From the IMG/VR virus record IMGVR_UViG_3300025889_000667, positions 1-29,463 of that record: a stretch of 29,463 nt of DNA; one strand, given 5' to 3'. This stretch comes from a virus. Positions 2,368 through 29,463 of this stretch are shown one piece after another (position 1 is the first letter of the stretch; every line of letters starts with the position of its first letter). Both the position numbers and the translations under genes were made by a program. Under the pieces are notes generated by a model. It was not told the DNA's origin. It was given only the letters and a program-made list of their open reading frames with translations, and did not search any database.

Positions 2368-2625
2368 ATGGCGAGTGATATAACCGCATTTCTGAAACTG
2401 CAAAATGACGCTTACCTGCTCACCCTGAAAGGGCGGGTTGCGGACGCTATTTTGGCGGGCAGTGTCACCACATCATTTTCAAATGCATCCCAAAGTGGAA
2501 GCCAAGAGCTAGTCATGCCGACCGACGAACTTGCCGCGCAATTGACAGCGGTCCTAATTGAAAAGGGGCTTGCAAACGGCGCGACTAAACCAACCAGAAT
2601 GACATTTGCGAGGTTTGCCAGATGA
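2368..2625 (+). CDS. gpW-like head-tail joining protein (probable)
   Basis: This 85-residue protein lies between the large terminase and the portal, exactly where lambda places gpW, a small protein that binds the filled portal and lets tails attach. The sequence gives two helical stretches, one near residues 5-30 and one near 50-67, around a Ser/Thr-rich hairpin (GSVTTSFSNASQSGSQELVM). This helix-hairpin-helix layout resembles the gpW fold. Sequence similarity alone is too weak to prove it. The stop overlaps the portal start as ATGA. The assignment is positional plus fold pattern. Confidence 0.55.
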   Translation: MASDITAFLKLQNDAYLLTLKGRVADAILAGSVTTSFSNASQSGSQELVMPTDELAAQLTAVLIEKGLANGATKPTRMTFARFAR

Positions 2626-4070
2626 GCGCATTGCTAGACCACAACGGCAGACCAATTATTGCAACGCCTCAACCGCGTAAACGAGCAACAATCAACTCCC
2701 ACTATAGGGGCACGGAGAGCAACCGGTTCAGGACTTCGTTGCCATACATTGCCGCTGATATTAACCAGACACTAAACCGTGGAACGCGCCGCCGATTGAT
2801 GGCGTTTTCGAGGTGGCTTTACGCCAATCATGGCATGGTGCGCGGCGCAGTAAATGACGTTGCCCGATACGCTTTAGGAACAGGTTTGACACCTCAAAGC
2901 CAAAGCGACGAAGCCAAAGCATACGAAGATTATTTTGCCGAGTGGGGCAAGGTTTGCGATGTGGCAGGTCAATTCACGTTTGCGCAAATGCAACGAATGG
3001 CTTCCATTCGCATGGACGTTGACGGCGACATTGGCTTTTTAATGATTGGACGCCAAGATGCATTCCCGCAATTGCAGCTTGTCGAATCGCACAACATTGC
3101 CAGCGAAGGTTTGAAGTGGTCCGATGTCGGTCATGATGGCGTCCAGGTGTCACCGAGTGGCAAGCCTGTAGCTTATAACGTCAGAAGCGGAGATGATTAC
3201 CGAAGTATTTCTGCGAACAATTTTATCCTGGTTTACGACCCTGACAGAGTTGCGCAACTGCGCGGAGTTTCTGCTCTCACTCACGCAATCGACCACATCA
3301 GAGACGCAACCGATATTTTAGAATTTGAAAAAGTCGGCGTGAAAATGAACAGCGCCGTGGGTTTGGCTATTACTACGCAAGGCGGCATTGCCGACGATGG
3401 CAGCAGTTTAATCGAGGACGGCTATAGTGCGACCGACACAGGAACCGTTGCTTGGGACACTTTTCAGCCTGGCATGGTTCCAAGGCTCAAAATTGGCGAA
3501 AGTATCGAATCCTTTGCGAGCAATAAACCGTCACCGGCGTTTGCTGGGTTCTTGGAATACTTGCTCCGAGATGTGGCTTTAGGTCTTGGCGTTCCATATG
3601 AATTTATCGTGGAACCATCAAAACAAGGAACCGCATCAAGGTTCATTCTAGAAAAAGCCGCACGAAGATTTGAAGAACGCCAAGCCCTTATAACAAGCCG
3701 TTTTTGCAATCGCGTATGGGGTTGGGTTATTGCTCGCGGAATCAAGCGCGGCGACCTGCCAGCGTCATCTGATTGGTGGCGAGTGAATTGGCAGGCGCCC
3801 AAAAAAATCACCGTTGACCTCGGGCGCGAATCCAAGGCCAACCAGGACGCCATCAAGATGGGGCTTCGCACGATGCGCGAGGACACCGGAGAACGCGGGC
3901 ATGATTGGCAAGACATCCGCAATCAGGTCGAACGTGAAGCAAGCGACTTGCTTGAACGCGCAAACCGTCTTGCAGACACCTACAAAATCACGATGGACAC
4001 TGCGCTTCACCTACTGAGCCAGAGGACACCGAATCCAGTTTTTAATAATGACAGCGAAACTGACGCATAA
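2622..4070 (+). CDS. Portal protein, lambda family
   Basis: At 482 residues this is close to the usual size of lambda-family (gpB) portals. Twelve copies would form the ring at one capsid vertex through which DNA enters and leaves and to which terminase and tail connectors dock. Family features include an N-terminal tract with LMAFSRWLYANHGMVRGAVND (truncated pattern around residues 59-79), the MRMDVDGDIGF-type stretch SIRMDVDGDIGFLM (~127-140), QLQLVESHNI (~149-158), and the PYEFIVEPSKQGTASRFILE region (~325-344). It starts with a 4-base overlap with the gpW-like gene, and its stop overlaps the protease start by 23 bases, as in a co-translated head operon. Confidence 0.93.
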   Translation: MSALLDHNGRPIIATPQPRKRATINSHYRGTESNRFRTSLPYIAADINQTLNRGTRRRLMAFSRWLYANHGMVRGAVNDVARYALGTGLTPQSQSDEAKAYEDYFAEWGKVCDVAGQFTFAQMQRMASIRMDVDGDIGFLMIGRQDAFPQLQLVESHNIASEGLKWSDVGHDGVQVSPSGKPVAYNVRSGDDYRSISANNFILVYDPDRVAQLRGVSALTHAIDHIRDATDILEFEKVGVKMNSAVGLAITTQGGIADDGSSLIEDGYSATDTGTVAWDTFQPGMVPRLKIGESIESFASNKPSPAFAGFLEYLLRDVALGLGVPYEFIVEPSKQGTASRFILEKAARRFEERQALITSRFCNRVWGWVIARGIKRGDLPASSDWWRVNWQAPKKITVDLGRESKANQDAIKMGLRTMREDTGERGHDWQDIRNQVEREASDLLERANRLADTYKITMDTALHLLSQRTPNPVFNNDSETDA

Positions 4071-4827
4071 ACTCAACAATGATGTTTGGGCAATCCTGCC
4101 GGATTATCATGGCGCAATTGCGCGACAATTGCAGGAACATGACTATGACGGCAACGGTTACGAATTGCCGCGACCTGAGGAGGAGAGTGGCATTGCCATT
4201 ATTCACATTCATGGCGCAGTTGGTAAACTATTGACCGATTTTGAGCGCATGTTTGGCATGACCGATTATGACGACATTGCTGAACAAGTTGCTGATGCTG
4301 ACGCCAACCCGAACATCAATTCAATCTTACTTCACATCGACTCGCCAGGTGGAACCATTACAGGGCTTCCAGAGTTAGCGGCAAAATTGCGCAACGTCAG
4401 CAAACCTTTAGTTGCATACACAGAAGGCACAGCAGCAAGCGCGGCCTATTGGATTGCAAGCCAAGCAGACAGCGTTTTGTTAAGTGAAAGTGCCGAAGTG
4501 GGAAGCGTTGGCGTTTATGTTGCGCTACTCGACCAGACGGAATATTTGCGCAACATGGGACTAAAAGTCAATGCGGTCAGCGCCGGTGATAACAAGCTTG
4601 ATTATGCTGATTTTAAACCACTGAGCGAAGAGGCGCGCGAGCGATTGCAGGCGAATGTTGACAAGTGGCACGCAAGATTTAAGCAGGAAATCAACAACAA
4701 ACGCAACGTGCCAGAGGCAAGTATGACGGGCCAAACCTACGAAGGTTTAGAAGCCGTTGAGGCCGGACTTGCTGATGGAGTTGTGAACGACCTGGCCGAT
4801 GTCATTGGCCTTATGGCAAATTTATAA
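4048..4827 (+). CDS. Prohead maturation protease, S49/SppA (gpC-like)
   Basis: This 259-residue serine protease of the S49 family should process the scaffold and portal proteins inside the prohead. Visible features are HIDSPGG (~96-102), the nucleophile region GTAASAAYWIAS with Ser131, and AGDNKLDYADF with Lys183. The 52-residue spacing of Ser and Lys matches the Ser/Lys dyad spacing of single-domain SppA proteases such as that of Bacillus subtilis. The C-terminal TGQTYEGLEAVEAGLADG is typical of the family. Unlike lambda gpC, there is no long in-frame C-terminal scaffold domain; a separate coiled-coil gene follows 4 bases downstream. Confidence 0.92.
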   Translation: MTAKLTHKLNNDVWAILPDYHGAIARQLQEHDYDGNGYELPRPEEESGIAIIHIHGAVGKLLTDFERMFGMTDYDDIAEQVADADANPNINSILLHIDSPGGTITGLPELAAKLRNVSKPLVAYTEGTAASAAYWIASQADSVLLSESAEVGSVGVYVALLDQTEYLRNMGLKVNAVSAGDNKLDYADFKPLSEEARERLQANVDKWHARFKQEINNKRNVPEASMTGQTYEGLEAVEAGLADGVVNDLADVIGLMANL

Positions 4828-4831
4828 ACGC

Positions 4832-5251
4832 ATGAAAACAATACTCGATTTGGTAAAAGCAAATGTGGAGTTGAACAATTTAGCAACCAAGCTAGACGAA
4901 GCGACTGCCGCAAATCAAACATTGCAAACTCGCCTGGAGGACTTGAGCGCCGCACAGGCTGAGGAAACAGCAAAACTTGGCGCGCAACACGCCGAGGAAA
5001 TCGCAAGCCTTGAAAGCAAAATCATGGTCTTGGAAGAAGCAAATTTACTTCTTGAGGAGAAACAAAAGAGCGCAGACGAAAAGGCCGTGGAAATTGCGGC
5101 AAGCGTTGGCGTTGATACTCCAGTTGAGGAAGCAACCGAAAACGATGCGCCTGATGTCAGCGTTGAATCGCTATGGCAACAATACAATGCCATTGAAGGC
5201 AAACAGGAGAGGCGCGCGTTTTACATCGAAAACATCAAAAACAAACTCTAA
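4832..5251 (+). CDS. Coiled-coil protein, probable scaffolding protein
   Basis: The product is 139 residues, acidic and largely helical. A long heptad-like coiled coil spans residues ~8-85, an acidic Pro/Glu linker follows, and the C-terminus is ESLWQQYNAIEGKQERRAFY. That final motif resembles C-terminal motifs I have seen in scaffold-type phage proteins. The position between protease and capsid gene is where scaffold genes usually lie. The start at 4832 (MKTILDL) is preferred because it clears the protease stop; an in-frame ATG at 4799 would overlap it. Role inferred from composition and position. Confidence 0.65.
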   Translation: MKTILDLVKANVELNNLATKLDEATAANQTLQTRLEDLSAAQAEETAKLGAQHAEEIASLESKIMVLEEANLLLEEKQKSADEKAVEIAASVGVDTPVEEATENDAPDVSVESLWQQYNAIEGKQERRAFYIENIKNKL

Positions 5252-5257
5252 AAACAA

Positions 5258-6145
5258 ATGGCAAATTCACTCAACGGAATCAACCTGGCCGCCGTGGCGG
5301 AACAGAGCCTCGATTATCTATCCACACAGTTTCACCCATTGCGCGCGTTTGCGCGTGATTTCAGTGATGAAATTTCAGGACAAGGCGAAAGCGTCACCAC
5401 GCGCGTTCCTTCGTCCATGACCGCAAGCGACCTATCGACTGGCTACACTGCCAGCGATGTCACCAGCACTGCCAAGACAATCACCTTGAACAAATTCAAG
5501 GGATATTCAATGGCGTTCACCGATATGGAAGTTTCCAAGTCCGGCAACTTTGACTGGTTGTCCAGCGTGTTTTTGGGACCGGCTTTGGAGGTGACGCTTG
5601 ACGCAGTTATGGATGATTTGCTGGCGTTAGTTTTGAATGCGAACTACACCGCAAACGAAGTCATCACAGCAGCGAATTTTGACGCTGACGAAGTTGCCGA
5701 TTTGGCAGCCGATTTGACAACTGCCAAAGTGCCAAAATCAGAGCGCGCCTTGGTTTTGCCTCCTTCGTATTACGCCAGCGTCCAGAAGGATGCAATCGTG
5801 CAGGACGCTTCCAGCTACGGCACCGCAAGCGCAGTGCAGGAAAACGCTGCCATGCGCGTGCATGGTTTTAACCTCTACGAATACACAGGCATTCCGGCCA
5901 ACGGTGAAAACCTGGCAGCAATTGCCTTGCACCCAAGCGCTTTGTTGCTTGCCGCACGGACACCTGCCGCGCCTGCTGATGGCAGCGTTGAAGTACAGGA
6001 CATTGTTGACCCTTCAACCGGGCTTCCAATCCAGCTTCGTACTTTTTATGACAACGTGGCAGGAAAACATTACCTGACCATGGGAGTACTCTATGGGGTT
6101 GCTGTGGGTAATTCCGGTGCTTTGAAGCGCATCAAATCGGCATAA
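5258..6145 (+). CDS. Major capsid protein, copy 1 (P22 coat-like)
   Basis: This 295-residue protein has the look of the P22-type coat branch of the HK97 fold. Family-like segments are VTTRVPSSMTASDLSTGYTA (~46-65), ITLNKFKGYSMAFTDMEVS (~74-92, spine-helix lead-in), DAVMDDLLALV and HPSALLLAAR. It begins 7 bases after the scaffold candidate. The start context is A-rich (ctaaaaacaaATG) with no Shine-Dalgarno. It is followed 5 bases later by a clear paralog, and the two align end to end at roughly 40-45% identity by eye. Either copy could be the principal shell subunit; this one is closer to the scaffold and protease. Confidence 0.88.
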   Translation: MANSLNGINLAAVAEQSLDYLSTQFHPLRAFARDFSDEISGQGESVTTRVPSSMTASDLSTGYTASDVTSTAKTITLNKFKGYSMAFTDMEVSKSGNFDWLSSVFLGPALEVTLDAVMDDLLALVLNANYTANEVITAANFDADEVADLAADLTTAKVPKSERALVLPPSYYASVQKDAIVQDASSYGTASAVQENAAMRVHGFNLYEYTGIPANGENLAAIALHPSALLLAARTPAAPADGSVEVQDIVDPSTGLPIQLRTFYDNVAGKHYLTMGVLYGVAVGNSGALKRIKSA

Positions 6146-6150
6146 TTGAC

Positions 6151-7035
6151 ATGAGCAACACACTGGCAGGAGTGTCTCTGGAGCAGGTCAGCGAAATGAC
6201 GCTCGACTTGCTTGCGGATAACTTTTGGATGTTTTCGCTATTTGCTCGCAATTTCAGCGATAGCATCAGGGAGCGCGGTGACCGCACAGTTACACGCGTT
6301 CCCTCCAGTGTTTCTGTTTTAGATTTATCGAATGGCTACACTGCCAGCGATGTGTCGACGACCGAAATCGAAATTGAGCTTTCAAATTTCAAGGGCTTTT
6401 CAATGGCGTTTTCGGAATACGAAATCGCCAAAGCAAAGAGCGCGACAATCCTTGAAAGAACTTTTATTCGCCCAGCAATTGACGCAACAGCAAAAGCGGT
6501 TGCGGACGATTTACTGGCGCTGGTGACGCCTGGCAATTTTCCAACTTCACAAGTCAGGACAGCCGCCAATTTTGACAGTGACGACCTGGCAGATGCCGCT
6601 GCAACTATGACGGGCAACAAAGTGCCGCGCGGTTTGCGCAGTTGTATGCTGAACGCATCTTACACATCATCGTTATCCAAGGATGGAGCGATTGGTGTGG
6701 CAAGCGCATACGGGACACCGGCGCCCATTCAGGACAACATCATTTCGACGATTCACGGTTTTGGGATTACCGAATACCAAGGCATCCCAACCACAAACAA
6801 CTTGCAAGGCTTTTATGCGCATCCGAGCGCGCTTTGCATTGCGGCTCGACAAATTGCGCGCCCGAATTATGGCGGCGCCGAAGTTATTGATTCCATCGAG
6901 CCGCGCACGGGCTTGCCTGTGCAATTTAGAAAATTTTTCAGCCCGCGCGAGGGCAAATACTACCTGACTTGCGGCATTCTTTACGGAGTTGCCAAAGGTC
7001 AATCGAATTCACTTATTAGAATCACCAATATATAA
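6151..7035 (+). CDS. Major capsid protein paralog, copy 2 (P22 coat-like)
   Basis: This 294-residue protein is collinear with the preceding coat protein along its whole length. It shares TRVPSS, GYTASDV, FKG-SMAF, DDLLALV, AANFD, the HGF-YEY/TEY region, HPSAL--AAR, TGLP-Q-R and the C-terminal YLT-G-LYGVA block. Divergence is spread evenly with no truncation, so it is a full coat-fold protein and not a remnant. It may form pentons, co-assemble in the shell or act as a minor capsid or decoration subunit. The five-base spacing to copy 1 suggests tandem duplication and co-translation. Which copy dominates cannot be read from sequence. Confidence 0.85.
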   Translation: MSNTLAGVSLEQVSEMTLDLLADNFWMFSLFARNFSDSIRERGDRTVTRVPSSVSVLDLSNGYTASDVSTTEIEIELSNFKGFSMAFSEYEIAKAKSATILERTFIRPAIDATAKAVADDLLALVTPGNFPTSQVRTAANFDSDDLADAAATMTGNKVPRGLRSCMLNASYTSSLSKDGAIGVASAYGTPAPIQDNIISTIHGFGITEYQGIPTTNNLQGFYAHPSALCIAARQIARPNYGGAEVIDSIEPRTGLPVQFRKFFSPREGKYYLTCGILYGVAKGQSNSLIRITNI

Positions 7036-7036
7036 A

Positions 7037-7258
7037 ATGAACAGCAAACCGTCTTTTTGCGTGGGTTTTGATGCCCAGGGAAAACCCAACATAATCGCCG
7101 TTGGAGATGCCGAAACATGCAAGCAAGCCTTTATTGCCGAGCGCGACAATCCGAGCGGAAAATTTACAGGCATCAGCGTTTACCGTAAACCGCCATATTG
7201 GAAACGCGCCGACATAGCAATTAAGGCAAGCCCTAAAAAGGCCGCCGCCCGCAAGTAA
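7037..7258 (+). CDS. Small hypothetical protein after the capsid genes
   Basis: This 73-residue protein is not recognised. It starts with MNSKPSFCVGFDAQGKPNII and contains a GFDAQGKPNIIAVGDAETC stretch that suggests a small alpha/beta unit. It ends in a basic tail (KASPKKAAARK). Its ATG is one base past the capsid paralog stop, so it is probably co-translated with it. A head accessory role is possible from position only. The GC-rich tail codons also form the left arm of a potential hairpin described separately. Confidence 0.7.
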   Translation: MNSKPSFCVGFDAQGKPNIIAVGDAETCKQAFIAERDNPSGKFTGISVYRKPPYWKRADIAIKASPKKAAARK

Positions 7259-9651: not shown

Positions 9652-10229
9652 TGTCTAACACTTGGGCAGAAACATGTGCGCCAGGTCACCATTATGTGGC
9701 TGGCGCCAAATTGCGCCCATTGACATTTGGTCACGCGATGCTCATGGAGCGCGTTGGTTTGTATGAAATACTGACACCATTGGAGTTTCATTGTTTTATT
9801 GGTATTTGTTCGCGCAACTATGACCAAGGCATGAATTGGTTGGGTTGGTTTCTTTCGCCAGTTGGGCAGTGGTATTACAAGCGCAAACCAATGCCAAAGA
9901 ACAAAAACGAGGCGCTTGCGCAAGCGATGGAATACCTGATTCAGGCGCAGCAAATTCCCGAACTCATAGGCAATGACGACAATGTTGCTTGTGGTGCCAG
10001 GTTTGGCGCGCCTTTACTTCAAACAATCCGTTCGACCGCGCTTGAGTTTTTGAACTACCAACCCGAAACAATAAATGATGCGCCATTTGGTCAATTGGTT
10101 TGGGATATATTGGCGCGCAACGAAATGCGAGGCGGCGCCAAAATAATACACGGAGAGTTTGCCGAAGGATTGGAGGCATTGAAGCAATTGCAAAACAACA
10201 AGAAGGAGCCCGTCAATGGGATTGCTTAA
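9651..10229 (+). CDS. Tail assembly chaperone-position protein (gpG-like place)
   Basis: This 192-residue mostly helical protein sits between the tube and tape measure candidates, the place of gpG/gpGT-type chaperones that coat the tape measure during tail assembly. It begins with beta-rich RPLTFGHAMLMERVG and continues with helices including NKNEALAQAMEYLIQAQQIP. The RPLTFGH-type start resembles other phage proteins found just before tape measures. I looked for a lambda-like slippery heptamer near the 3' end and saw none, so a frameshifted product is not supported. The stop overlaps the tape gene by 14 bases. Confidence 0.5.
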   Translation: MSNTWAETCAPGHHYVAGAKLRPLTFGHAMLMERVGLYEILTPLEFHCFIGICSRNYDQGMNWLGWFLSPVGQWYYKRKPMPKNKNEALAQAMEYLIQAQQIPELIGNDDNVACGARFGAPLLQTIRSTALEFLNYQPETINDAPFGQLVWDILARNEMRGGAKIIHGEFAEGLEALKQLQNNKKEPVNGIA

Positions 10230-11058
10230 TTTTAAACTTGGCCTGGACATTCGCGCCTTCAACGCTGGAATCAACAAGGCGCGCGCAAGTTTCAACGGTT
10301 GGTCAAAAGATGCAATGAAAGGCATCGGCGGGCAAATCGCGGGTGCAATGGCTTTGGAAAGCATTGTTCGCAATGTGGGAAACCTGTACGCAGACGCCGC
10401 CAAAATACAAAGGGAATCCATGGCGCTTGGCATTTCAACTGACGAGTATCAAGCACTGGGGAGGCAGGCCCGTCTGGCAGGCGTTGAAATTCAAGACCTA
10501 GTTGATGCCATGAATGACTTAAATGTTCGCCAACATGACGCGCTTGCTGGAAGTAAAGATTTCATCGAAATATTCAAACGCTACGGCGTTGAGTTTGGGA
10601 CCGAATTGCCATCTTTTATACGCGAACCCAAAGAGCTTTTTATGGAGTTCGCGAGGGGCATGTCTCAAAGTGGTTTAAGTCAGGGGCAAATTTTGCGCGA
10701 CCTTGACGAGACAATGAGCGACACAGGCAAGCGCCTGGCGTTTGGGGTAATGCAAGGGTTCTTTAATAACTTGGATTTAAACAACGTTAGATACAAAGGG
10801 GACCAGTTGGAAATGTATGCAGATGCATATCGAGAGTTTGAGCAAAACAAAGAAAACATCCAAGACACTGCCGCGCTAGTATTGTACAAAACCAACGAAG
10901 CCTTAGGAACCCTTTTTGGCAGCATGTATGCAGGAACTATGGGAATTACAGACGACCAACGCAACGTTAAACTTGAGCGCATTCTTCGAGAAAAACAAGG
11001 CGAGCAAACCAAAGTACTCAAATCAATTGAGCGCAACACAAAACCACTAGCACAATGA
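10216..11058 (+). CDS. Short tape measure-like tail protein
   Basis: This 280-residue protein starts with GLLNFKLGLDIRAFNAGINK, the kind of opening (a strand followed by a helix with regularly spaced residues) seen at tape measure N-termini. It continues with helices containing IGGQIAGAMALESIV and GISTDEYQALGRQARLAGVE, also usual in tape measures. The body is helical and ends with charged helices. Tape measures set tail length and are usually 600-2000 residues, so this one would specify a very short tail. No long hydrophobic or transmembrane region is seen. This start has a real Shine-Dalgarno (aagaaggag). The call comes from N-terminal pattern and position. Confidence 0.6.
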   Translation: MGLLNFKLGLDIRAFNAGINKARASFNGWSKDAMKGIGGQIAGAMALESIVRNVGNLYADAAKIQRESMALGISTDEYQALGRQARLAGVEIQDLVDAMNDLNVRQHDALAGSKDFIEIFKRYGVEFGTELPSFIREPKELFMEFARGMSQSGLSQGQILRDLDETMSDTGKRLAFGVMQGFFNNLDLNNVRYKGDQLEMYADAYREFEQNKENIQDTAALVLYKTNEALGTLFGSMYAGTMGITDDQRNVKLERILREKQGEQTKVLKSIERNTKPLAQ

Positions 11059-15396: not shown

Positions 15397-18300
15397 ATGG
15401 CGCTACAATACACAAGAGCTTCGACGGTGGCAGTTGGCGCGCCGATAACGAGCGCGCAATGGAATAAGCTTGCAACGGCTTTCAATGACCGACTGCTTGG
15501 CGGAGTCGGTGACCCAACCTACCGCTTGCATTGGTTTTGGCACTCGATGTTTCGCAATTTGCGAAATCAAAACGGATTGCTGTATGCGCCAGAGGATGAA
15601 TGGTGGAAAATTTACGCACATGTTCAGCCTGATGAAGCGACTTTTCCTGTAGCGCCAGCGGGCGACCCTGAAGGCGCCTATTTGGGCAACCCTGTCAATG
15701 GCTTTGTTTTTGGTAACGGAGACACCATTAAAAGCGAGCCTGGCCGCCTGTCTTGGGATGGCGTTGACCAAACTGGAATTTTGTTGCACAACGTTTCAGG
15801 CGCACCGGCAACCGATTCAGAAAAATGGGATATTGGGCGCTACCAACGCGGCGTAGTCGATGGCGCAAACGTCAACGACCTAAGCCTTGCCAATGCATTC
15901 CAGGCGGCCCGCGGGCATTTCACGTTTGGATTCTGGCGCTGGTTTCAGCGCTCCTATGGTGGATTTCTTCCCAAACCAGCCTACCTTGGCCAGTGCGCAA
16001 ACATGCCAGACATGCCAAGTTATGGTTTAAAATTCACGCAGACAGCAGGACCGACCACGACCTCGTATTCAACTTGCTATGGTGACGCTGGAGCCGTTTT
16101 TTCCTGGTGGCGAACTGCGCGTAATTACGTGCTTTTGAAATGGGACGGCACAATCGAATATCTACCCACCGATGAATACATTGAGGGACCATACGATGGC
16201 GAATTTGACAACGCGTATTTAGAGCATCCAAACGGTGAACAACTAGCAGTTGCGCTAAATTATTTTATAGAGCAATTTCGCGGAACGGAAGCAGAGCAAG
16301 CGGCAAGTGGCTACAAGGTTGAAGAAAAGGCTTTCGACTTCCAGGGATTTTTCGCGCGGCAATACTATCTTGCGCCAGCATATGGCGAGGACGATGGCAC
16401 TGGCACAATAGAGGCAACCTACGAGCGGTTTGAGTTCAACAACGCATACGGCGCAGGCACATATGGCAGCCTGGCGAGCAATGCCGCGCAAATTTACACC
16501 ATCCATTCCGGTTTTGTTTTGGCTGGCGTTTTGGCGTATCGAAACGCTGGCAGTGGCGCTAAGGAATTTGCGGTCGAAGTCAACGGCGCTGAGATTGGGC
16601 GCGTGACAATTGCAAACGGAAGCAATAGCGCCTCTTTATGGTTTGCGGCGCCAGCGGGCGGCCAGGTCAAAGTTAAAACCATCACCGGCATGGGCGCAAC
16701 AGATGAAACATACGTCGAAATTGCGGAGCTTCTGGAATACAAACCAGAGAACGAAGATGCGTATCTGGTACTACGCTGCGCCAGCGCTGACAATTCCACA
16801 AATGACGCCGAAGGGAGCGACACAACGCAACCCAAAGACATTTCAGATGCCTATTTTCGGCACGGCATGATTTACAACGGCACACGCGAGGATTTGCAGG
16901 ACGAAACTACCGCGCTTAATAAAAACCCTGTTTACCGTAGCGTTGCCGAAAAAGTGCGCGAGCGCTTGCGCATGGTGGACAGGCATGGACTGGTGGGGTA
17001 CGAAGTAAGCGGCGGCGTCAGTGTTTTGTATTTTAACCGGCGCGCGTTTGGATTGTCATATGCCGACCAGTTTGAAGGCATTGGCCCCTCACCAGACCCA
17101 GTTGCCAGCGGCGCAATACAAGCGGGCTATCAATACACGGTCACAGGTGGAACCAGCATTGTCTACAACGGAGCAACCATAGCGGCAGGCGCTCAATTCA
17201 CAGGCGCGTTTGGTGTAAAAACATACACCAAAACAGCAGGCACGGAATCAGTGTATGAATACGAAGGGATTCGCAACACATCGCCAGAAGGCGGCTATGA
17301 TAACCGCTGGAGTATGTTTTTGCAAAGTATGAGCTACCAGGCCGCCAGTGGTAGCGCATACAAACCAGACGCATACACTGACGTTGTGGGATGGGGACAT
17401 GACAGGTGCGCAATGTTTAGCGATGATTGGACAAATATTGCAGGCGCGGGCAATCCGCCAGGCAAGGAAATTTTGCCATTTGTCACGCCGTACCCTGGCG
17501 CTTATTTGCAGCGCAGCGAGAACCCAACAGGTTACCGATATTTGCTCAACACTCATGAGCCACCAGATGGATACAATGGCAGTGGCAATTTGGTTGAACA
17601 GGCAAACGATACTGATTGCGACACGTTAACAGAATCTGGAGACTGCACAGGGGTTGAAGCGCATTACAAAAGCTGCAAAATATATGAACCAGATTATCGA
17701 GTTGTAAGCGTCCGCGATGCAGGAAATAACCAGGTGCGCGTTGAGCTTGACCGGCGTCTGGAATACAACGAGGACGCGCCTGGGACAATAGTAAACACAA
17801 GCGCTAGCCGTAGCGCATACATCACCGCAGACAGCACAGGCGCCACCAATGGCGGCTACCGCACGCATGAAAACGCAGTTGTTGAATATTTGCGTTACAC
17901 TGTAGACGGTGGCGCAGATTGCGGGCAGCGCATCGGAGACTTCGCACCAGACGCATATTCAGGCAGCGGTTGGGACAGTAGCAGCATACAAGGCGCATGT
18001 ATGCCGCGCTTTTATTTCACGCGCCTGATTCCGAGAGTATACGAGGACAATAACGCAACATATCAAAACACTGACACGCTGATGCGCAGCGATGAGCTGA
18101 CCTGGTGCGAGACTATATTACGAGCGATTTGCGGCGGCTATGTTGACGAGAGCAGTACGAATTCCCAGCGGCAATATGTTGACGGCAACGGAAAGACGCA
18201 ATGCTATGACAAACGGCTCTATGATTTCACTTTTGAAAATTTGATGTTTGCCGCAAATGGAACGCAACATTTTCGCGAATTGCCGACAACAATTCGAGGT

Positions 18301-19071
18301 GATGCTTTCAAGGGTTTTGGCCCATTGCCTTCAATGCTGGCATATGCCGACCATTTCAATCAGCTTGCAAATGCAATCAATAAATTAAACCGCGCGCGCG
18401 TTTATTTGCCGGTTGATTTTCAGTACAAACACTATGACTACCTGAGCCAGGTGCCGATTGCAGTAAATAGTCAGACAACGCCAAACTGTGTTTCTGGCGC
18501 CGTTTGGGCAGACGGTCAGGTCTTTAGCGCAAACTGGTCACTAGTTTTTAATGATACAAACTGGAGGACCAGCGTCTCTCCAACTGGCAACGCCTACAAA
18601 CGGTGCTACATTGGCGACGATGGCGCAGGCAATTGTGTTCTGGAATGTGAGAGGCGCGATGTTCATTATCGTTTTGCGCTCGTCAATTATGCGCTACTCT
18701 CGATTCCAGATGACCTCAAAACGTTGATTAACTCCAACACTGCTTTGGGTTTTTCATGCATAGACGAATATCAAATTTACGACACGGAAAAAGCAATTGT
18801 GAGCAGTGGCAGCGGTTATGGCGCCGATGGCGCTGCAAATGGAGCAGAGGGTGACTATGTTCACTCTGGTAACTACTGGGACTGGACCGAGGAACCAGAT
18901 GCGTGGGTCGGGGAATGCGTTTTAAGCAGCGGTGGAATTCTGGAAGCTGAAAATCCACCAACCAGCAACTACGTAGACACGTTTATCGGTAGTTATTATC
19001 TAGGCGCGGGCAATAACCGCAACATAACGGCAAACAGCATCCAGGCGCTTGTGACGGTGCCGCTGGTATAA
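15397..19071 (+). CDS. Large tail or virion protein (1224 residues), unassigned
   Basis: This is the largest gene in the window. I do not recognise the full-length family. It starts VAVGAPITSAQWNKLATAFN, a pattern also seen at N-termini of phage tail-tip proteins. A Trp-rich region follows (FWHSMFRNLRN, FTFGFWRWFQRS). Residues ~344-448 look like a beta-sandwich (glycan-binding type) ending YVEIAELLEYKP. Around ~570-610 a short module with AGYQYTVTGGTSIVYNGATI recurs in many phage virion proteins. The C-terminal half has many Cys residues, often spaced as pairs. It most likely forms the central tail tip or a spike. No catalytic motif was found. Confidence 0.8.
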   Translation: MALQYTRASTVAVGAPITSAQWNKLATAFNDRLLGGVGDPTYRLHWFWHSMFRNLRNQNGLLYAPEDEWWKIYAHVQPDEATFPVAPAGDPEGAYLGNPVNGFVFGNGDTIKSEPGRLSWDGVDQTGILLHNVSGAPATDSEKWDIGRYQRGVVDGANVNDLSLANAFQAARGHFTFGFWRWFQRSYGGFLPKPAYLGQCANMPDMPSYGLKFTQTAGPTTTSYSTCYGDAGAVFSWWRTARNYVLLKWDGTIEYLPTDEYIEGPYDGEFDNAYLEHPNGEQLAVALNYFIEQFRGTEAEQAASGYKVEEKAFDFQGFFARQYYLAPAYGEDDGTGTIEATYERFEFNNAYGAGTYGSLASNAAQIYTIHSGFVLAGVLAYRNAGSGAKEFAVEVNGAEIGRVTIANGSNSASLWFAAPAGGQVKVKTITGMGATDETYVEIAELLEYKPENEDAYLVLRCASADNSTNDAEGSDTTQPKDISDAYFRHGMIYNGTREDLQDETTALNKNPVYRSVAEKVRERLRMVDRHGLVGYEVSGGVSVLYFNRRAFGLSYADQFEGIGPSPDPVASGAIQAGYQYTVTGGTSIVYNGATIAAGAQFTGAFGVKTYTKTAGTESVYEYEGIRNTSPEGGYDNRWSMFLQSMSYQAASGSAYKPDAYTDVVGWGHDRCAMFSDDWTNIAGAGNPPGKEILPFVTPYPGAYLQRSENPTGYRYLLNTHEPPDGYNGSGNLVEQANDTDCDTLTESGDCTGVEAHYKSCKIYEPDYRVVSVRDAGNNQVRVELDRRLEYNEDAPGTIVNTSASRSAYITADSTGATNGGYRTHENAVVEYLRYTVDGGADCGQRIGDFAPDAYSGSGWDSSSIQGACMPRFYFTRLIPRVYEDNNATYQNTDTLMRSDELTWCETILRAICGGYVDESSTNSQRQYVDGNGKTQCYDKRLYDFTFENLMFAANGTQHFRELPTTIRGDAFKGFGPLPSMLAYADHFNQLANAINKLNRARVYLPVDFQYKHYDYLSQVPIAVNSQTTPNCVSGAVWADGQVFSANWSLVFNDTNWRTSVSPTGNAYKRCYIGDDGAGNCVLECERRDVHYRFALVNYALLSIPDDLKTLINSNTALGFSCIDEYQIYDTEKAIVSSGSGYGADGAANGAEGDYVHSGNYWDWTEEPDAWVGECVLSSGGILEAENPPTSNYVDTFIGSYYLGAGNNRNITANSIQALVTVPLV

Positions 19072-29447: not shown

Positions 29448-29463
29448 GGTTTCCGCGCACGAT
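29448..29463. repeat. Right copy of 16-bp terminal direct repeat
   Basis: The last 16 bases are identical to bases 1-16. Joining the copies gives an uninterrupted run from the helix-turn-helix gene into the small terminase gene, so the window most probably represents one full genome unit. Confidence 0.85.

Follow-up and report, generated by a model that had tools for sequence, protein, structure and literature searches.

We have identified two adjacent, full-length coat genes, A and B, in the genome of a small tailed phage (the window, i.e. the whole 29,463-nucleotide stretch of DNA analyzed here). Because the pair is old, differentiated and constrained, and its loss was never seen, comparison of the sequences indicates that B serves a distinct function. 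In the reading that we prefer, and hold with middling confidence, the phage has a two-protein shell in which A would be the main (hexon) subunit and B a specialized minor subunit, most likely the penton. This suggests a head built from two kinds of tile, which to our knowledge has been established among tailed phages only for T4.

Results

ORF A (positions 5258–6145, + strand), the first paralog, encodes a major capsid protein of 295 aa. ORF B (6151–7035, +), the second and derived paralog, encodes a capsid protein of 294 aa, and the stop of A is separated from the start of B by the five bases TTGAC (6146–6150, +). Coordinates, lengths and the 5-base gap agree with an earlier description made from the letters of the window (the sequence-only reading). 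The same description recognized the two proteins as paralogs, and its estimate of 40–45% identity was slightly low: global alignment gives 140 identical residues out of 294 (47.6%) with one gap, a single residue near position 215 of A, and values across the two-copy phages range from 47 to 68%. A Pfam scan of A and B gave no match. In a PHROG scan, A matched phrog_283 (2e-29) and phrog_267 (8e-18), both annotated as "major head protein", and B matched the same two families (5e-17 and 3e-11), so the resemblance is not due to chance. Both reading frames are intact and full length in all relatives examined.

AlphaFold2 models of A and B were built on alignments of contig-derived relatives and are of moderate confidence (pLDDT 76.9 and 73.2, respectively); they are not independent of each other, because many alignment rows are common to both. 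The order of elements is the same in the two models: an N-arm helix, an E-loop hairpin (45–88), a spine helix (98–122), the A-domain and the P-domain strands. An HK97 fold is predicted for both proteins; a different fold for either of them, which would have refuted the sequence-only reading, is not seen. The conserved blocks noted in that reading are common to A and B, and so is the domain layout. Both genes also occupy the head-module position of an HK97-fold capsid gene, after portal, protease and scaffold.

Foldseek returned 251 PDB chains for A and 288 for B at E<=0.001, with phage capsid proteins on top and mycobacteriophage Douge gp8 as the top match for both. A family sequence profile also finds Douge gp8 (3.5e-15), making this protein (8ZDH) the nearest solved structure by profile as well as by fold. 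In Douge, gp8 is the only coat protein and bears an additional Ig-like domain at its C terminus (PMC13033339). The P22 coat shares the HK97 fold with A and B and is detected by Foldseek, but the matches are weaker (E about 1e-8 to 1e-9) and run across long gaps (>400 alignment columns). Unlike A and B, it is the product of a single coat gene, is about 420–430 aa long and carries an insertion (I) domain within the A-domain. This domain is absent from both A (295 aa) and B (294 aa), and it cannot fit into a protein of 295 aa when P22 chains have 412–429 residues. The label "P22 coat-like" previously given to the pair holds only loosely, as a structural and annotation link to P22; Douge gp8 is nearer and the insertion domain is missing.

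The head module is of the ordinary siphovirus type with a doubled coat gene, in the order terL-portal-protease-scaffold-A-B. On the + strand, it comprises the terminase large subunit of GpA type (569–2269; PF05876, 9e-36), on which the phage tree was built, a portal protein of the lambda family (2622–4070; PF05136, 3e-51), a prohead (head maturation) protease of the S49 family (4048–4827; PF01343, 8e-27; phrog_53, 2e-64) and a probable scaffolding protein of 137 aa (4838–5251), assigned from its position. The position of the latter is conserved throughout the two-copy clade, and it presumably organizes both A and B. Directly after the coat genes lies the gene of a small protein of 73 aa (7038–7258, +) with the core VYRKPPYWKR, which perhaps acts in head completion or decoration. 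It was rejected as a partner specific to the duplication, because diverged counterparts are found at the same place in single-copy phages.

The window begins with a 16-bp direct terminal repeat, GGTTTCCGCGCACGAT (1–16, +), and ends with the identical 16 bp (29448–29463, +). The starting base is shared by two related contigs (28.1 and 29.0 kb; L204–L207), each of which has its own form of the repeat at both ends; the last base of the repeat is T/T in the window and G/G and C/C in these contigs. One of the two continues at its end straight into AGATCGGAAGAGC, which we take to be Illumina adapter sequence. The end-matched repeats and the run-through into adapter mark real physical genome ends. 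They are best explained as filled-in cohesive ends, i.e. cos-type termini of about 16 nt just upstream of terS, and cohesive ends are expected from a lambda-type terminase. The window is apparently a complete linear genome of 29.5 kb.

Contigs with two coat copies measure 28.1–31.2 kb, compared to 28–39 kb for those with a single copy (longest 38.9 kb). Two-copy genomes are not larger than single-copy genomes. A gain in genome length therefore did not accompany the second coat gene, and a larger capsid as the reason for it is unsupported by the sizes. The same numbers bear on the idea that A and B each build a whole shell, one or the other being employed according to conditions or head size. 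The complete HK97 fold predicted for each protein would permit this, but the two genes lie in one operon with the start of B 1–24 bases after the stop of A in all relatives, the two-copy genomes are not the larger ones, and a second scaffold or a size-determination gene was not seen. We rate this as the least probable of the explanations weighed here, and the alternative shell sizes put forward in the sequence-only reading find no backing in genome length or in a size-switching gene.

Relatives were collected from four IMG/VR scans. The profile finds a tandem two-copy arrangement at 117 loci and one copy at 85, counts in which some contigs were fetched more than once and the one-copy loci include truncated contigs. 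The pair is present in IMG/VR in at least 55 distinct versions, which answers the earlier suggestion to search for relatives that keep it, and an assembly artefact is excluded by the many independent assemblies. Wherever a contig extends far enough downstream, an A-type copy is always followed by B. Relatives outside the two-copy clade, including the isolated Verrucomicrobia phage P8625 and prophages of Verrucomicrobiota, have one coat copy. The homolog in P8625, gp11 (NC_029047), is 41% identical to A and 33% to B and is annotated with the P22-coat superfamily. P8625, whose host group is the Puniceicoccales, has the same gene order as the window, terL-portal-protease-coat-small protein, but only one coat gene. 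It is a siphovirus with a head of about 47 nm and a genome of 32.9 kb (PMC4642752).

Terminase kin among bacterial genomes are mostly from Verrucomicrobiota, and the two-copy phages are small tailed siphoviruses that probably infect Verrucomicrobia/Verrucomicrobiota. A coat query against bacterial genomes found no close relatives of the pair. The coat family occurs in 25 of 388 genomes drawn from the phylum of "Verrucomicrobia bacterium LW23" (G023), one of the genomes with terminase kin, and adjacent coat copies occur in none of these 25. In the search of the Verrucomicrobiota phylum, coat domains of two genomes (G287:C1:79264-80157 and G036:C21:422408-423304) were found inside open frames of ~635–640 residues, which suggests that the coat is fused there to a second head protein, perhaps scaffold or protease. 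One two-coat phage contig, L210 (JAFMKU010000109.1), is part of a Candidatus Microthrix MAG. Its kin are Verrucomicrobiota phages, and it is probably mis-binned, or else comes from a distant host.

The TerL tree unites all two-copy phages in a single clade (100/100). In the MCP tree, the exact root of which is ambiguous with respect to the nearest single-copy group, the A copies (98/94) and the B copies (100/99) form separate clades, and the duplication must therefore be old. The two copies of L132, the deepest two-copy contig, grouped together in the first coat tree. After the addition of L210, L132_A joined L210_A (99/97) and L132_B joined L210_B (100/99), and the diagnostic residues in the two contigs follow gene order. 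In AU tests, one origin was not rejected (p 0.13 for A+L132_A; 0.05; 0.20), whereas the swapped order A+L132_B was rejected (p 0.006). An independent duplication in L132 is disfavored by the separation of its two copies once L210 is added, the diagnostic residues and the AU test. One ancestral tandem duplication is the simplest account of these trees, favored rather than proven; the alternative would be that the L132/L210 branch underwent gene conversion or, early on, a second duplication.

Codon comparisons indicate that A and B are both under purifying selection (median dN/dS 0.08 and 0.12, respectively). Against distant contigs, dN is in most cases about twice as high for B as for A, and synonymous sites between A and B are near saturation. 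The earlier statement that neither gene is decaying is in keeping with this and with the open frames in all relatives examined. The substitution rates also bear on the possibility that B is a matter of dosage or redundancy, either a passing spare or a protein that is no longer part of the shell and serves elsewhere, e.g. as a decoy for capsid-sensing defence. The faster evolution of B is what such a role has in its favor, and it is no direct indication. On the other hand, both genes are held by purifying selection in spite of near-saturated synonymous sites and clade-wide diagnostic differences, and in genomes of only 29 kb one would expect some relatives to have dropped a transient duplicate, whereas no loss was seen. 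We find this explanation very improbable.

In the subclade of the window, 40 sites are fixed differently between A and B. The outgroup majority residue is kept at 12 sites by A and at 3 by B. Fixed differences are relatively common in the N-arm and spine, where they affect 20 of 45 conserved sites, compared to 20 of 81 in the rest of the protein (Fisher p 0.03, with region borders that we set ourselves). The net charge is -14.2 for A, -12.3 for single-copy proteins and -5.9 for B. A is more acidic than B in 18/18 contigs; in L210, added later, the gap is small (A -7.3, B -5.1). The shift from A to B is located in the spine (+5) and the A-domain (+4). Residue 115, in the spine helix, is K/R in all 18 B copies, including those of L132 and L210; A copies have D/N at this position, and single copies D/N/T/E. 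In charge and at residue 115, A has retained the single-copy state and B is derived.

No clear Shine-Dalgarno-like site was found at the coat genes of the two-copy clade. The 5-base spacer in the window is compatible with translational coupling of B to A. The upstream fraction of adenine is 0.57 before A, in an A-rich stretch, compared to 0.35 before B, and A has weaker structure in the start region and a lower ENC (slightly stronger codon bias) than B; the p-values of these proxies are not independent, because the contigs are related. Taken as expression hints, they constitute weak evidence that A is more abundant than B.

Discussion

We propose that a single coat gene was duplicated in tandem once, in the ancestor of a small siphovirus lineage. 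The two would be expressed from a common operon, downstream of a scaffold and a protease that serve both, and be built into the same head. A would keep the ancestral role and make most of the shell (hexons). B, which would have changed most in the N-arm, the spine helix and the A-domain and lost much negative charge, would now be a specialized subunit of low abundance that most likely makes up the pentons of the eleven vertices, like gp24 beside gp23 in T4. The fold of B is complete, E-loop included, and a place in the shell is therefore the most likely one. A as hexon and B as penton follows from the T4 analogy together with the conservation of A and its apparently better expression; B has no sequence mark of a pentamer former, and its penton role rests on analogy, asymmetry and the weak expression proxies. 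We infer that both proteins are in the virion, A in a greater amount than B, with B at the pentons. Several points speak against our reading. B could reside outside the shell, and at 47–68% identity A and B could be mixed in one capsomer. Furthermore, a specialized penton protein is no necessity, since one protein suffices in related phages of similar genome size. Of the options in the sequence-only reading, a two-protein shell with a penton/hexon division is the best supported, with the placing of each protein a matter of inference.

The main rival, because A and B are still so similar, is a mixed shell in which they co-assemble in the same capsomers as ordered hetero-hexamers or by irregular tiling. 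Their 47–68% identity is far above the 17% of T4 gp23/gp24 (PMC12407261). Conserved blocks and domain layout are common to both, and the charge shifts in the spine and A-domain could give complementary A-B contacts. A natural HK97-fold precedent is the two-component encapsulin of Streptomyces lydicus, in which Enc1 and Enc2, like A and B, are shell paralogs encoded in one operon and separated by conserved diagnostic differences; unlike A and B, they form a bacterial nanocompartment rather than a virus, with irregular tiling within mixed shells (PMC12407261). The proxies, however, suggest unequal amounts of A and B. We know of no tailed phage with a mixed-capsomer shell, and an HK97-fold head made from obligate mixed capsomers was not found described for any virus. 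We regard a mixed shell as possible but rather unlikely, and an obligate partnership of the two proteins inside single capsomers is likewise unlikely.

B could also be another minor component of the shell or of a vertex, e.g. portal-vertex subunits or an assembly-initiation ring, with A making both hexons and pentons. The proxies for unequal abundance and the derived state of B would fit this, and the single-copy relatives show that one such protein can form both capsomer types. However, none of the core elements is missing from B, not even the E-loop, and this suggests that it packs in ordinary capsomers; we also know of no precedent in which a full-length coat paralog is confined to the portal vertex. 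Such a role seems improbable to us.

The preferred division into hexon and penton subunits takes T4 as its model. T4, a prolate myovirus, has a genome of about 145 kb or more (PMC13185644); gp23 makes its hexons and gp24 its pentons (PMC3012670, PMC5694885), and the two proteins are 17% identical (PMC12407261). The vertex protein gp24 is regarded as having been added late, and gp23 mutants can bypass it (PMC3012670). As in T4, two full-length HK97-fold paralogs are found in one phage together with a scaffold and a prohead protease, and, like gp23 and gp24, A and B are conserved and differentiated across their lineage. Unlike in T4, a genome of 29.5 kb carries the two genes side by side, the proteins are 47–68% identical, and the pair belongs to an unrelated lineage with a separate duplication. 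The PHROG matches are to 283 and 267 only, and phylogeny and tblastn tie A and B to P8625-like phages. The pair would work like the T4 system and is not a member of it.

No other tailed phage with an adjacent pair of coat paralogs was found in the literature searched, subscription papers aside, and none of the papers found describes such a pair in a small siphovirus. Here, an unrelated lineage with genomes of 28–31 kb keeps a tandem coat pair that is still 47–68% identical. The single-copy sister lineages represent the "before" state, so that the origin of a penton/hexon division, or of a mixed shell, becomes testable. Residues 115 and 34 and the N-arm/spine sites are candidates for the division of labor.

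Two further genes of the window concern the tail. A protein of 1224 aa (15397–19071) lies in the tail/receptor-binding region and has no PHROG match. The tape-measure protein (10216–11058), recognized by PHROG tape-measure matches, is very short (280 aa), which implies a short siphovirus tail.
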